The notes under the pieces were generated by a model that saw only the letters and a program-made list of their open reading frames with translations, ran no database searches and had not been told where the DNA came from. Shown here one piece after another: positions 19,195-23,389 of a DNA stretch of 33,296 bases. This stretch comes from Planctomycetota bacterium. GTDB taxonomy: Bacteria; Planctomycetota; Phycisphaerae; Phycisphaerales; SM1A02. The stretch lies in assembly GCA_003671055.1 (NCBI GenBank), contig QWPV01000026.1, positions 1-33,296 on the forward strand. Reading direction: 5' to 3'. Position 1 is the stretch's first letter, and each line of letters begins with the position of its first letter. The position numbers and the translations under genes are program-made.

Positions 19195-20544
19195 GGCTTG
19201 CGATGGGTTCGTTGCGCATGTTGCATCGAAGAGTATTTCGCCAGCCCGCACCGTCATCACAGGTTTCGCACGCACATTCCAGCCATCGAATGGGCAGTTA
19301 CGCGACTTTGATTGGAACGCGTCTGCGCGAATCGTCCATGAGTTCTCTGGGTCGATGAGCGTGAGGTCAGCAACACCGCCGACGGTAAGCGTGCCGATTC
19401 CATCGACGCGCGACGCGAGCCCACAGAGCCGCGCTGGCGCAAGCGTGAGCAGTTGAATCAATCGTGGCCAGTCGATCACGCCGTCTTCGACAAGTGCTTT
19501 CGCGTAGAGGGCAAGTGCGCATTCGAGTCCGATGATTCCAAACGGCGCGCTCGCGAAGTCACGCGCTTTCTCAGCAATCGTGTGGGGCGCGTGATCGGTT
19601 GCGAGCACATCGATCGTGCCATCGGCGATCGCGAGTTTCAGTTCATTGATATCCCACTGCGTACGAAGCGGCGGGTTCATCTTCGCGCCGGTGTTGTAGC
19701 CATCGCAAGCGTCGCAGGTGAGGAGCAGATGGTGCGGCGCTGCTTCGCCAGAGATGCGATGGGCGCGATCAGAACCAACACGCGCACGCGCTTCTCGCAG
19801 GATGCGCGCACTTCCGCCGCTCGAGAGATGCTGCGCGTGATAGCGCGCATCGATGCGTGTGTTGAGGCGCAAATCGCGCTCGAACATGACTTCTTCAGCA
19901 TCGCGCGGCCAGGGCAGAAGGCCAAGTCGCGTTGCAACTGGTCCCTCATTGATGAGCCCGCCTTCTGAAAGCGACGCATCTTGGCAGTGCTGCATGAACG
20001 CGCGATCGAGTGTCTTGCACACTTCAAGCACGCGACGCATCATGCCGCCCGACGCGATGCCGTCGCCGTCGTCAGAGAACGCGACCGCGCCAGCGTGCGC
20101 CATCGATGCCATCGGCGCGAGCTGATCGCCCTTGCGTCCGACCGTTGCAGCACCCACGACAAACACGCGCGCGCTCGCGGCGTCCGCAGCGCGTCCTTCG
20201 ACGAATCGCACCGCCATCGCGGTATCGAGGCAAGGGTTCGTGTTGGGCATGCAGCACACTGTGGTGAATCCACCCGCGGCAGCAGAACGCGTTCCCGTCG
20301 CAATCGTCTCTTTCGCTTCACCGCCTGGTTCGCGCAGATGCACGTGCGGATCAATCAGTCCTGGACAGAGAATCGCACCACCGCAATCAATCACCTGTGC
20401 GTGCGATGGAGCGTTGACCTTGCCCCCGTATGCAATCGCCTGAATGCATTCGCCCACGACGAGCAATTCGCCAGTTTCATCGCGCTTTGTGAGCGGGTCA
20501 ATGATGCGTCCGCCGCGGAAGTGAAGTGCGCGCTCCGTCGTCAT
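19171..20544 (-). CDS. pyrC: Dihydroorotase
   Basis: A 457-residue amidohydrolase of the multifunctional type I length class that closes carbamoyl-aspartate to dihydroorotate in pyrimidine synthesis. It has the zinc motif DPHVHLREPG near 65-74, CMPNTNP, FSDDGDGI, QHCQD, GEAAPHHLLLT and the catalytic TDHAPHT; the end carries GIGTLTVGGVADLTLIDPE. The bridging lysine seen in some amidohydrolases is not expected in this class. The ATG at 20544 overlaps the stop of the DUF4920-like gene as ATGA, so the two are translationally coupled. No pyrB or carA is adjacent. Its end runs 24 bases into the haloperoxidase-like gene from the opposite side. Confidence 0.92.
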   Translation of the reverse strand: MTTERALHFRGGRIIDPLTKRDETGELLVVGECIQAIAYGGKVNAPSHAQVIDCGGAILCPGLIDPHVHLREPGGEAKETIATGTRSAAAGGFTTVCCMPNTNPCLDTAMAVRFVEGRAADAASARVFVVGAATVGRKGDQLAPMASMAHAGAVAFSDDGDGIASGGMMRRVLEVCKTLDRAFMQHCQDASLSEGGLINEGPVATRLGLLPWPRDAEEVMFERDLRLNTRIDARYHAQHLSSGGSARILREARARVGSDRAHRISGEAAPHHLLLTCDACDGYNTGAKMNPPLRTQWDINELKLAIADGTIDVLATDHAPHTIAEKARDFASAPFGIIGLECALALYAKALVEDGVIDWPRLIQLLTLAPARLCGLASRVDGIGTLTVGGVADLTLIDPENSWTIRADAFQSKSRNCPFDGWNVRAKPVMTVRAGEILFDATCATNPSQALRAHAPR

Positions 20545-21170
20545 GGTGTTCCTTCTGCTGGTGGAATCACAGGCGTGATCACAGGCACGATGCCGCCAAC
20601 TTTTGGCGGAGTTTCCGCTTCTGCTGGAAGTGGTGACGCCGGTTCATCGAGGCCGTGCTTTGGCATCACCACGGAGTCAGCGATGAAAACGATCTTGCGT
20701 TCTTCCACAACAATCGCCGCGATTTCTTCCGCGGACTTACCGGCGTCGCTCGCGAGGTGCTGCAGCATTTCGACAGTCTGCACTTGCCAGAATGCATATC
20801 CCGTCGCGTGCACACTCCGTCCTCGGCAGTTGCGCGGCACGAAGAACGCGTGATCCTTGTTCATGACGAGGATCTTCGCTTGGTCTGCTCCTTCAATCTC
20901 AAGCCAGCAACCCATCGTGAGACAGACTTGCGCGACATGGCCGTCGAGGACGAGGAGTTCGCCAGTTCCCACGAAGTCTTCTGGATGCGCGAGCAGTATT
21001 TCTGGTGAGAGTTCAGGTGTTACAGAACGAAGCGTTTCTTCGAATGTTCCGTAGACCGCCCAACCTTGTTGTACGTCGTAGGTCGCTCTCGTTGGAGTGT
21101 TGCATCCACTCAGGTTGAGGCTCAAGAGCGCAAGGGAAAGGAGGGAGGCGCGTCGCATCATCGGTGGCAT
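20541..21170 (-). CDS. DUF4920-like lipoprotein
   Basis: A 209-residue lipoprotein. The signal MPPMMRRASLLSLALLSLNL ends in the lipobox LSGC. The mature part carries GELLVLDGHVAQVCLTMGCW then LEIEG, matching the core of DUF4920 proteins (a small OB-like domain where 'VC..KGCWM' is conserved). It continues through ILVMNKDHAFFVPRNCRG, HATGYAF and EEIAAIVVEERKIVFIADSV. The two cysteines of the VC..MGCW block may bind metal or form a disulphide. A Pro/Glu-rich tail follows. Other Met codons (fourth and fifth) could be the start. It is the first gene of a pair with pyrC; a metabolic link is not evident. Confidence 0.75.
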   Translation of the reverse strand: MPPMMRRASLLSLALLSLNLSGCNTPTRATYDVQQGWAVYGTFEETLRSVTPELSPEILLAHPEDFVGTGELLVLDGHVAQVCLTMGCWLEIEGADQAKILVMNKDHAFFVPRNCRGRSVHATGYAFWQVQTVEMLQHLASDAGKSAEEIAAIVVEERKIVFIADSVVMPKHGLDEPASPLPAEAETPPKVGGIVPVITPVIPPAEGTP

Positions 21171-21223
21171 GGTAGAAGAAGCACGCGCAATCGTTCATGC
21201 GATGAAACGCAGATCAATTGAAG

Positions 21224-21259
21224 CAAAAAAGCAGTCGCCCGGAAGATTCCGGGCGACTG
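21224..21259 (-). terminator. Strong rho-independent terminator
   Basis: A perfect 12-bp stem (21232-21243 with 21248-21259) with loop AGAT is followed on the minus strand by TTTTTT (21225-21230). It is the best terminator in the window. It lies 138 bases past the cysteine-rich lipoprotein gene and directly before the DUF4920-like gene, so it closes the former transcript. Confidence 0.92.
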
Positions 21260-21397
21260 GGATTCGATACGTGATCGAAGTGACTTGTGCTTTGTCATGC
21301 CACGTGAACGTGTGCATGACTTCACAGCAAGTGCTGACCGAAGTCAGCGCATTGGCGAATCAACATGCTTGACGCACGTTGACTCTGAGGGCGAGCC

Positions 21398-21700
21398 TCA
21401 CTTGCCAGAGCAGGTTGTCTTGCCAGCGCAGCAGCCGGACTTACCGGAGACAGCGCCTGGAGCAGCAGCTGGAGCAGCGGTTGACATGGAGCATGACGAA
21501 GCACCCTTGGTGCAGGTCGCGGCAGCGCCGGAGACTGCGCCAGGAGCGGATGTCATGGTTGCGGTGCACTCAGCTGACTTGGTTGCACAGCATGCGGACG
21601 AACCAGAGACAGCGCCTGGGGCAGCGGTCTTGGTGGTTGAGTTGCATGCACCGAGGAAAGCAACGAGCGAGAGGCAAGCGAGAGTCGTAAGGGTCTTCAT
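21398..21700 (-). CDS. Cysteine-rich lipoprotein with three PGAVSG repeats
   Basis: A 100-residue lipoprotein. The ATG at 21700 has a strong AAAGGAG eight bases upstream, and the signal MKTLTTLACLSLVAFLGAC ends in lipobox LGAC with C19 as the lipidated residue. The mature 81 residues consist mostly of three units beginning APGAVSG at residues 27, 52 and 80. Each continues as three residues, then [CT]C, then a spacer and another C: C37-C38-C45, C63-C70, C90-C91-C97. The DNA repeats too (see the repeat entries). I recognise no family. Cysteine pairs on a surface-tethered, Lys/Ser/Thr-rich chain suggest metal binding or disulphide cross-linking, which is inference. It is monocistronic, with its own leader and terminator. 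Confidence 0.82.
   Translation of the reverse strand: MKTLTTLACLSLVAFLGACNSTTKTAAPGAVSGSSACCATKSAECTATMTSAPGAVSGAAATCTKGASSCSMSTAAPAAAPGAVSGKSGCCAGKTTCSGK
21444..21465. repeat. 22-bp repeat, copy 1, coding PGAVSG (cysteine-rich lipoprotein)
   Basis: This is the third protein repeat read from the minus strand. Near-identical 22-bp copies lie at 21528-21549 and 21603-21624, differing at a few positions. The spacing of 84 and 75 bases fits in-frame growth by duplication. Confidence 0.8.
21528..21549. repeat. 22-bp repeat, copy 2, coding PGAVSG
   Basis: The middle copy of the three coding repeats in the cysteine-rich lipoprotein gene; it differs from copy 1 in three or so bases. Confidence 0.8.
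21603..21624. repeat. 22-bp repeat, copy 3, coding PGAVSG
   Basis: The copy nearest the start of the cysteine-rich lipoprotein gene; it differs from copy 1 at about two bases. Confidence 0.8.
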
Positions 21701-21767
21701 AGAGGTAACTCCTTTGAAAAAAATTTCTCCGAGGTTTGGCTCCACATGGAGCCGAATCGTTACCTCA
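21701..21767 (-). promoter_or_regulatory. Structured 5' leader of the cysteine-rich lipoprotein gene, possible translational switch
   Basis: Read on the minus strand: GAGGTAAC (21766-21759), a hairpin GGCTCC-ATGT-GGAGCC (21753-21738), ACCTC (21736-21732), a T7 tract, the ribosome-binding site AAAGGAG, then GTTACCTC (21709-21702) directly before the ATG. The 5' GAGGT can pair either with the near ACCTC, enclosing the hairpin and leaving the ribosome-binding site free, or through eight bases with GTTACCTC, which overlaps the ribosome-binding site edge and start region. The pairings exclude each other. It does not match a riboswitch class I know. Confidence 0.5.
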
Positions 21768-21892
21768 GAATAGATCAGGACGGACTATCGGCACGATTGC
21801 CGAGAGAGTTGTAAGGATACAGAGCGGACAGTGTTCGGTTCAAGCATTTTTAGAAATTTTTTGCGTATCGAATACGAATATCCTTCATCCAA

Positions 21893-23389
21893 GTGGAGCA
21901 AACGCCGCATGAATCCCTGCCGAGTCCCCCTGAGTTTCCTCTCGGAGGGGATTCTGAACTCCCATCCGTGGAGGCGAGCTTGCTTGACGGACAGTCTGCG
22001 AGCATTCAGGAAGATGCCCTTGGTCGCGAATTGCGGCTTCGATCACTCTGTGAAAAGGCTCGTGCGCTCCCCGAAACACCGGGCGTCTACTTGATGAAGG
22101 ACACGCTCGGCCGCGTGCTTTATGTGGGAAAGGCATTGCGGCTGTGTGATCGCGTCTCGAGCTACTTCATTCCATCGACGGATCTCGGTGCGCGGAAGCA
22201 GCCCATGCTCGATCGCGTGGTGGACTTCGACATCGTGCCGTGCGAGAGCGAATGGGAGGCGCTGTTTGTTGAAGCGCGTTTGGTGAAAGACATTCATCCG
22301 CCGTTCAATGTCGCGTTGCAGGATGACAAGACGTTTCCGTATCTCGCCGTCACGACGCGCGAGGACTTTCCCACCGTCATGATCACACGTCATCCTACTG
22401 ATCCGCGGCTCAAAGGCGCGCGATTGTTCGGACCGTTTCTGCATGGACCGAGTTTGCGTCATGCGGTGGAACATCTCCAAAGCGTGTTTCGATTTCGAAC
22501 GTGTGACCTTGCGATTCTCGATGGTGATCCCACGTTGCCGCGATTTCGTCCGTGCCTCTTGCACGCGATTGGAAAATGCACAGCGCCTTGCGCGGCGAAG
22601 ATTTCGAAGACTGAGTATCGCGAAGATGTCGATCGATTCCTTCGGTTCTTTGTCTCTAAGCGCACCGTGATGACGCGGGAACTTGAGGCGGAAATGGCAC
22701 AAGCGTCAAGCGTGATGAACTTCGAGCGCGCAGCGGTTCTGCGCGATCAATTGAAGGCACTCGCGCGACTTGATCATCGAGAGACGCGCAGCGACGACAG
22801 CGACTTCAACTGGCAACCCGAGGTCACGCAGTTCATTCAAGATCCGATGGCGGGCGTGCGAAGCCTGCAGCGCGCGCTCGGCATTGAGACGCCTCTTCGT
22901 TGCATGGAAGCGATTGACATCGCGCACTTGCAAGGCGGTGAGACGGTTGGCTCGAAGGTCGCGTTCATCGATGGACGCCCGTTCAAAGATGGATACCGAA
23001 GATTCCGAGTGCGCAGCGTGAGTAACGACGACTACAGCGCGATTCGTGAAGTTGTCAGTCGACGCTACCGTGATGCGGGCGAAGGGCAGGAGCTCTATCC
23101 AGATCTCATTCTCATCGACGGTGGAATCGGGCAACTCAACGCGGCGATGGAGGCGTTTCAGGGACTCCGCGTGCAGCCGCCGTTTGTGATTTCACTCGCG
23201 AAAAAGGAAGAGTTGCTCTATCGCATGGGGAGCAGTGAGCCGCTAAAACTTGGGCGCGAGCATCCTGGCTTGAAACTCTGTCAGGCGATTCGCGATGAAG
23301 CGCACCGATTCGCTCAGCACTATCACCATCGATTGCGGGAGCGCGCATTGCTCGGCGAACGGAAGAAGAAGCCGAAGGGGACTCGATGA
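21893..23389 (+). CDS. uvrC: UvrC nuclease subunit of nucleotide excision repair, lacking the C-terminal HhH domain
   Basis: A 498-residue protein. The GIY-YIG nuclease domain begins PETPGVYLMKDTLGRVLYVG (Y66, R87 region, E128), making the 3' cut. A cysteine segment RPCLLHAIGKCTAPC follows, then a UVR motif near 259-293 (ELEAEMAQASSVMNFERAAV) for UvrB contact. The RNase H-like part making the 5' cut has EAIDIAHLQGG with D342, DDYSAIREVVSRRY, and LILIDGGIGQLN with D409. The chain stops soon after FAQHYHHRLRERAL in a basic KKKPKGTR tail, about 100 residues before a usual UvrC end, so the tandem helix-hairpin-helix domain is missing. The start is a GTG at 21893 and leaves about 50 poorly conserved residues before the nuclease; a later start is possible. 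The stop overlaps the next gene as ATGA. Confidence 0.9.
   Translation: MEQTPHESLPSPPEFPLGGDSELPSVEASLLDGQSASIQEDALGRELRLRSLCEKARALPETPGVYLMKDTLGRVLYVGKALRLCDRVSSYFIPSTDLGARKQPMLDRVVDFDIVPCESEWEALFVEARLVKDIHPPFNVALQDDKTFPYLAVTTREDFPTVMITRHPTDPRLKGARLFGPFLHGPSLRHAVEHLQSVFRFRTCDLAILDGDPTLPRFRPCLLHAIGKCTAPCAAKISKTEYREDVDRFLRFFVSKRTVMTRELEAEMAQASSVMNFERAAVLRDQLKALARLDHRETRSDDSDFNWQPEVTQFIQDPMAGVRSLQRALGIETPLRCMEAIDIAHLQGGETVGSKVAFIDGRPFKDGYRRFRVRSVSNDDYSAIREVVSRRYRDAGEGQELYPDLILIDGGIGQLNAAMEAFQGLRVQPPFVISLAKKEELLYRMGSSEPLKLGREHPGLKLCQAIRDEAHRFAQHYHHRLRERALLGERKKKPKGTR

Follow-up and report, generated by a model that had tools for sequence, protein, structure and literature searches.

The leader of E. 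coli ompA is a protective stem-loop of the 5' untranslated region (5' UTR). Other protective 5'-UTR stem-loops, those of H. pylori vacA and A. baumannii recA, are cited in a review (PMC7509114), which also reports a stem-loop in B. subtilis ermC that lay too near the Shine-Dalgarno (SD) sequence and lowered mRNA stability. In Yersinia ompA, an RNA thermometer occludes the SD (PMC8245352). A different class, translational riboswitches, has two exclusive helices that share one arm, one helix lying beside the start codon. The leader described here belongs to a small Cys-rich lipoprotein gene of a planctomycete. Like the protective leaders, it carries a stem-loop ahead of a strong SD; it differs in sequence and phylum, and its hairpin is probably not at the very 5' end, judging from the inferred promoter. 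Pairing at the SD and start region of a surface protein gene recalls SD-occluding thermometers of the Yersinia ompA type, but no melting is predicted between 4 and 45 °C and the pairing is not conserved through the genus. The two exclusive helices recall translational riboswitches, but the leader matches no aptamer family in Rfam 15 and its alternative fold is not conserved in one relative (G001). With a probability of about 0.5, we read this leader as a structured 5' UTR with a conserved stem-loop, belonging to the mRNA of a small Cys-rich lipoprotein that is probably well expressed; neither ligand nor temperature sensing is needed.

The window, the whole stretch of 33,296 nucleotides analysed here, is one contig of a 2.85 Mb genome (100 contigs), and it had no match in the plasmid collection. 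The lipoprotein gene lies on the minus strand at 21398–21700 and encodes 100 amino acids (translation P0001), with three APGAVSG repeats and an LGAC motif that we take to be lipobox-like; no Pfam family was assigned at E <= 0.01. Homologues exist in 50 of the 181 family genomes, and all but one (in G141) of the 51 homologous places were read as loci (30 + 20). Members of the protein family consist of APGAV(S/G) repeats, whose number differs between species, and contain CC and C residues. The divergent neighbour uvrC (21893–23389, plus strand; Pfam UvrC and UVR domains) is a conserved synteny anchor: in each of the 29 loci covered by the test (L007–L035), the lipoprotein gene has a divergent uvrC homologue upstream. 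A DUF4920 homologue was found nearby in 19 of these 29 loci, which extend only about 1.5 kb. The order uvrC, Cys-rich lipoprotein, DUF4920 is a conserved locus (window 20541–23389; L007–L035). In the window, the DUF4920 gene follows downstream of the lipoprotein gene, past an intrinsic-terminator-like site at 21232–21259 (minus strand), to which the terminator scan assigned a 12-bp stem and a T tract. With a CAI of 0.70, a value reached in 58 of 5000 synonymous simulations, the lipoprotein gene ranks at the top of 23 hand-selected window ORFs. Nine ribosomal protein genes of the same genome, recognised by eye, score 0.63–0.79, a range inflated since these reference genes define the scale. The lipoprotein mRNA is probably well expressed.

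As the gene is on the minus strand, its leader is the reverse complement of 21701 upwards, and all the following features are on that strand. The SD-like AAAGGAG at 21709–21715 is invariant in all four leaders of the genus, those of the window species and its three relatives (G001, G002 and G003). Twelve nucleotides ahead of the SD sits the hairpin P2–P3. The earlier note had proposed that GAGGU can pair with a near ACCUC around a perfect hairpin, or else over eight bases with a stretch abutting the SD and the start codon, and both pairings are present as described, GAGGU lying at 21762–21766 and ACCUC at 21731–21735. The inner hairpin, P3 (GGCUCC-AUGU-GGAGCC), occupies 21738–21753, and the near helix can be extended to the 8 bp of P2, formed by UCUGAGGU (5' arm, 21762–21769) and ACCUCGGA (3' arm, 21728–21735). 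The far pairing joins GAGGUAAC (5' arm, 21759–21766) to GUUACCUC (3' arm, 21702–21709), the latter overlapping the last G of AAAGGAG and stopping 1 nt before AUG. Further upstream, a hairpin P1 (21788–21803) was recognised by eye, UCGGC/GCCGA in the window and CUAUCG/CGAUAG in the relatives, with a register that differs between the two. A candidate -10, TATCCT (21814–21819), lies in a CTCTGTATCCTTAC block conserved in all four genus leaders, and a candidate -35, TTGAAC (21838–21843; TTCAAC or CTCAAC in relatives), is found 18 nt before it. A consensus scan found no promoter, so that both elements remain candidates only.

Conservation within the genus separates the two pairings. Pair counts come from a hand-made alignment, since MAFFT shifted the window sequence by one base at the 3' arm of the near helix. 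In P2, all 32 pair-by-species cells are paired; one pair has changed on both sides (C-G in the window species, U-A in its relatives) and two on one side only (U-G/C-G and U-A/U-G). P3 is paired in 24 of 24 cells, again with two one-sided changes (U-A/U-G and C-G/U-G), so that the near helix and inner hairpin together count one two-sided and four one-sided pair-keeping changes. By our own rough estimate, six transitions in these stems would all keep pairs with a chance of about 0.5^6 = 0.02. P2 and P3 together are paired in 56 of 56 cells over the four species, as befits a structurally conserved leader stem-loop, and RNAalifold, run on the hand alignment, returned a consensus of P2 and P3 plus a local GGAG/CUCU hairpin at the SD. 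Comparison of the sequences shows that four species of one genus of freshwater planctomycetes retain P2–P3 as an RNA hairpin.

Of the 32 cells of the far pairing in the same species, 27 are paired. All eight pairs form in the window species and seven of eight in both G002 and G003; each of the three relatives has lost the same pair, and G001 loses two more. The three broken pairs of G001 include two adjacent, central ones, where GUUCACUC breaks the helix. One pair is A-U in the window, G-U in G003, G-C in G002 and G-U in G001, which amounts to one two-sided change. The motif CUCUAUG is invariant in all four leaders; its CUCU, abutting AUG, can pair locally with the GGAG of the SD, so that its conservation needs no far helix. 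Covariation, proposed in the earlier note as one check of its two folds, bears out the near helix, with a compensatory change and pairing in four of four leaders, and leaves the far helix broken in G001 despite its one two-sided change. A covariance model built from the three relatives matched the window leader at E 1.4e-14; of the 181 family genomes searched under strict filters, none of the 177 that belong to other genera gave a match. Much of the model's score is expected to reflect sequence and not structure. The leader is present once per genome in the four genomes of the genus, and therefore no regulon is seen.

The inverted repeat might also be read at the level of DNA, with P2–P3 as a palindromic operator at which a repressor would act between the lipoprotein gene and uvrC. 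Its place within a short divergent region and its perfect 6-bp inverted repeat in the window would suit an operator. However, the changes in the relatives give G-U pairs, which leave an RNA stem intact but make the DNA site asymmetric; the one-sided changes thus fit RNA pairing better than a DNA palindrome, and on these G-U-keeping changes we rejected the operator, which we consider very unlikely. The repeat is also positioned downstream of the candidate promoter, and the genome lacks a second good site. The P3 site is the only exact occurrence in its genome; allowing up to 3 mismatches, two other matches appear, its own reverse complement and one further site.

Predicted energies set the window species apart from its relatives. 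Forced into the near or the far fold at 37 °C, the window leader reaches -37.6 vs -41.1 kcal/mol (far better by 3.5), that of G003 -32.1 vs -33.5 (a gap of 1.4), that of G002 -33.7 vs -34.7 (a gap of 1.0) and that of G001 -34.9 vs -22.4 (far worse by 12.5). Averaged over its pairs, the far helix has a probability of 0.99 in the window, 0.27 in G003, 0.08 in G002 and 0.00 in G001, and the near helix one of 0.01, 0.53, 0.56 and 0.88, respectively. A strong preference for the far fold is confined to the window species, where it holds at all five temperatures (4–45 °C). The SD is predicted to be mostly paired in every species, with upstream bases or early codons: the unpaired fraction of GGAG at 37 °C is 0.25 in the window, where the far fold dominates, 0.11 in G003, 0.13 in G002 and 0.02 in G001. 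Since the SD is mostly paired whichever fold dominates, the near fold is no obvious ON state.

Of a riboswitch or thermometer, the interpretation first suggested for these competing pairings, a conserved RNA structure in the leader is supported (four of four genomes), whereas a conserved far pairing, a temperature shift, an Rfam match and a near fold as ON state are not. Neither class is supported by a far fold that is strong in the window species alone and disrupted in one of its three relatives. For a translational riboswitch both folds would be conserved, and here the near one is paired in 32 of 32 cells, the far one in 27 of 32, with G001 broken. Nothing found points to the metal or redox signal that had been guessed. 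At gathering thresholds, Rfam recognised in the window only two tRNAs elsewhere and no riboswitch or thermometer; with E up to 5, Rfam 15 gave only a weak lncRNA match on the other strand, a search in which an undescribed aptamer would be missed. Rfam matched no riboswitch or thermometer at 20 loci either, our own included.

A thermometer on the lipoprotein gene would make use of the pairing between the start region and the upstream arm in the window species. Yet in predictions for 4, 15, 25, 37 and 45 °C no temperature transition and no melting of the SD-occluding helix appear: from 4 to 45 °C the far-helix probability in the window goes from 1.00 to 0.98 and SD accessibility from 0.25 to 0.26. 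With no Rfam thermometer match and a pairing not conserved in G001, a thermometer is highly improbable, and it was rejected on the five-temperature folding. The flat temperature response and the mostly paired SD argue against a thermometer and equally against a simple switch in which near is ON and far is OFF.

In a two-state translational switch, P2–P3 would form first during transcription and allow initiation, refolding into the far helix at the AUG would shut the gene, and a ligand, protein or small RNA would set the balance. The eight perfect far pairs of the window species and the seven of eight in G002 and G003, the two-sided A-U to G-C change in G002, the narrow energy gaps of these two relatives, and the recurrence of a different competing complement in the orthologous leaders of genus g28 (13 of 15, shuffle p < 0.05, from related rows and uncorrected) all speak for such a device. 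Against it stand the broken far helix of G001, the five of 32 far cells left unpaired, an SD mostly paired in every ensemble, and a g28 complement that excludes the SD. We regard the switch as fairly unlikely. The far pairing is mostly a lineage-specific complement, strong only in the window species.

A transcription attenuator would pair P2–P3, as terminator, with the seven U that come after P2 in the window (21717–21723), the far pairing acting as antiterminator. But the three relatives lack a U tract, the far 3' arm is made after it and therefore too late to act, and the terminator scan did not flag P2–P3. We give this arrangement next to no probability, having rejected it on the U tract and the order of the arms.

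How often such pairings arise by chance was estimated by dinucleotide shuffling, repeated 20,000 times, of the 97 bases that precede the SD. Of the shuffled leaders, 1.05% contain a Watson-Crick complement of 8 bases to the SD and spacer, and in 0.15% it is accompanied by a competing 5-bp helix on the same arm; the real chance is higher than these figures, because the feature was picked post hoc. The window leader folds better than its shuffles (-30.4 kcal/mol, z -3.15; z -3.5 in a second computation), and the leaders of the three relatives fold no better than theirs (z -0.7, -0.4 and -1.2). When less sequence is folded (95 nt + 12 nt), the window leader scores z -2.0, and two of 16 other upstream regions of window ORFs given the same treatment score lower (-5.4 and -2.3), which makes the leader unexceptional on this measure. 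The region at z -5.4, upstream of the DUF4920 gene, holds a terminator, and the terminator-like hairpin at 21232–21259 probably accounts for its value. The z-score table covers 46 of the 50 leaders, L012, L030, L035 and L054 being left out.

For the conserved stem-loop that we favour, the likeliest role of P2–P3, by analogy, would lie in the stability and spacing of the lipoprotein message. Acting in cis as a local stem-loop, it may protect the 5' part of the message, as the described protective leaders do, and keep the bases ahead of the SD compactly folded; P1 could add to this effect nearer the 5' end. The ermC case described in the review implies that protection does not necessarily follow when a hairpin lies 12 nt from the SD. 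Support for this reading comes from four sequences and a single two-sided change in the near helix; to be set against it, the far helix too has one two-sided change, and the window species is predicted to favour the far fold by 3.5 kcal/mol. More generally, competing pairings that look striking in a single sequence may be real only by half: here the local hairpin appears to be under selection, and the alternative fold for the most part does not.

Leaders at other uvrC–lipoprotein loci were taken as orthologous. Genus g28 has the best-scoring uvrC outside the window genus (67–71% identity). By eye, 13 of its 15 first-copy leaders carry a hairpin with a GUGU(N) loop, 11 of them CCCGC-GUGUN-GCGGG, and the same 13 have a downstream complement of 6–9 bases to the loop and arm. 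This complement test covered all 15 first copies and left out L046, a second, divergent copy in G076. Forced cross-helix energies were obtained for seven of the 15 leaders: the fold using the complement is the minimum-energy fold in five and lies 0.3 and 1.5 kcal/mol above it in the other two. The hairpin arms are nearly invariant, with no two-sided change in 14 leaders, and so lend the hairpin no support from covariation; the alignment (A4) held 14 of 16 leaders, without L016 and L046, and L010 was out of register in the covariation check. The pattern CCGCGTGTNGCGG...ACGCGG has 16 sites in 15 of 181 genomes, nine of them just upstream of the lipoprotein gene; the seven others compare with five matches of a backward-pattern control, about the control rate. 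For the P3 loop, the leaders of the window genus showed no comparable complement (0 to 3 bases).

One more alternative is kept alive by the g28 leaders and by the far pair that changed on both sides in G002. Here the leader at the uvrC–lipoprotein locus would be a bistable RNA regulator in g1, the genus of the window, and in g28, the two closest genera found, each with two near-isoenergetic folds of different sequence around a RUGU-loop hairpin; it would be a new riboregulator in planctomycetes, controlling an abundant lipoprotein rich in Cys. We hold this to be decidedly unlikely; if true of the orthologous leaders, it would place a riboregulator in Phycisphaerales. Among the open-access titles listed in literature searches, none concerned a riboswitch at such a locus or this leader.

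Many g28 leaders (L011:1436–1500, L013:1423–1500, L026:1417–1500, L031:1651–1738, L038:318–417 and others) show CCCGC-GUGUN-GCGGG followed by a ACACGCGG-like stretch. The two can be drawn as two short hairpins (in some), as one long hairpin, or perhaps as a GUGU-ACAC loop-loop contact.

The loop itself suggests another role, in which an RNA-binding protein or a nuclease would recognise the RUGU of P3 and thereby regulate or process the lipoprotein mRNA. AUGU or GUGU loops in four of four genus leaders, GUGU(N) loops in 13 of the 15 first copies of g28 and, by eye, AUGUU in the one g35 leader examined are consistent with it. Yet the motif is absent from the hairpins listed for seven g4 and nine g34 leaders and was picked post hoc, and both the partner and the homology of P3 with the g28 hairpin are hypothetical; we find this role rather unlikely. 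The seven g4 leaders look unstructured (mean z +1.1), which implies that the lipoprotein does not need a structured leader. Neither g4 nor g34 has the g28 pattern, and g34 leaders have a hairpin different from that of g28. In most of them (L020–L022, L025, L029, L034, L035, L037 and L055), a hairpin such as CGAGGGAC-AUGAC-GUCCCUCG comes soon after a conserved TAGAGTAT-like block, and variants that appear compensatory by eye, GGGUC/GACCC and GGGGC/GCCCC, occur in its stem.
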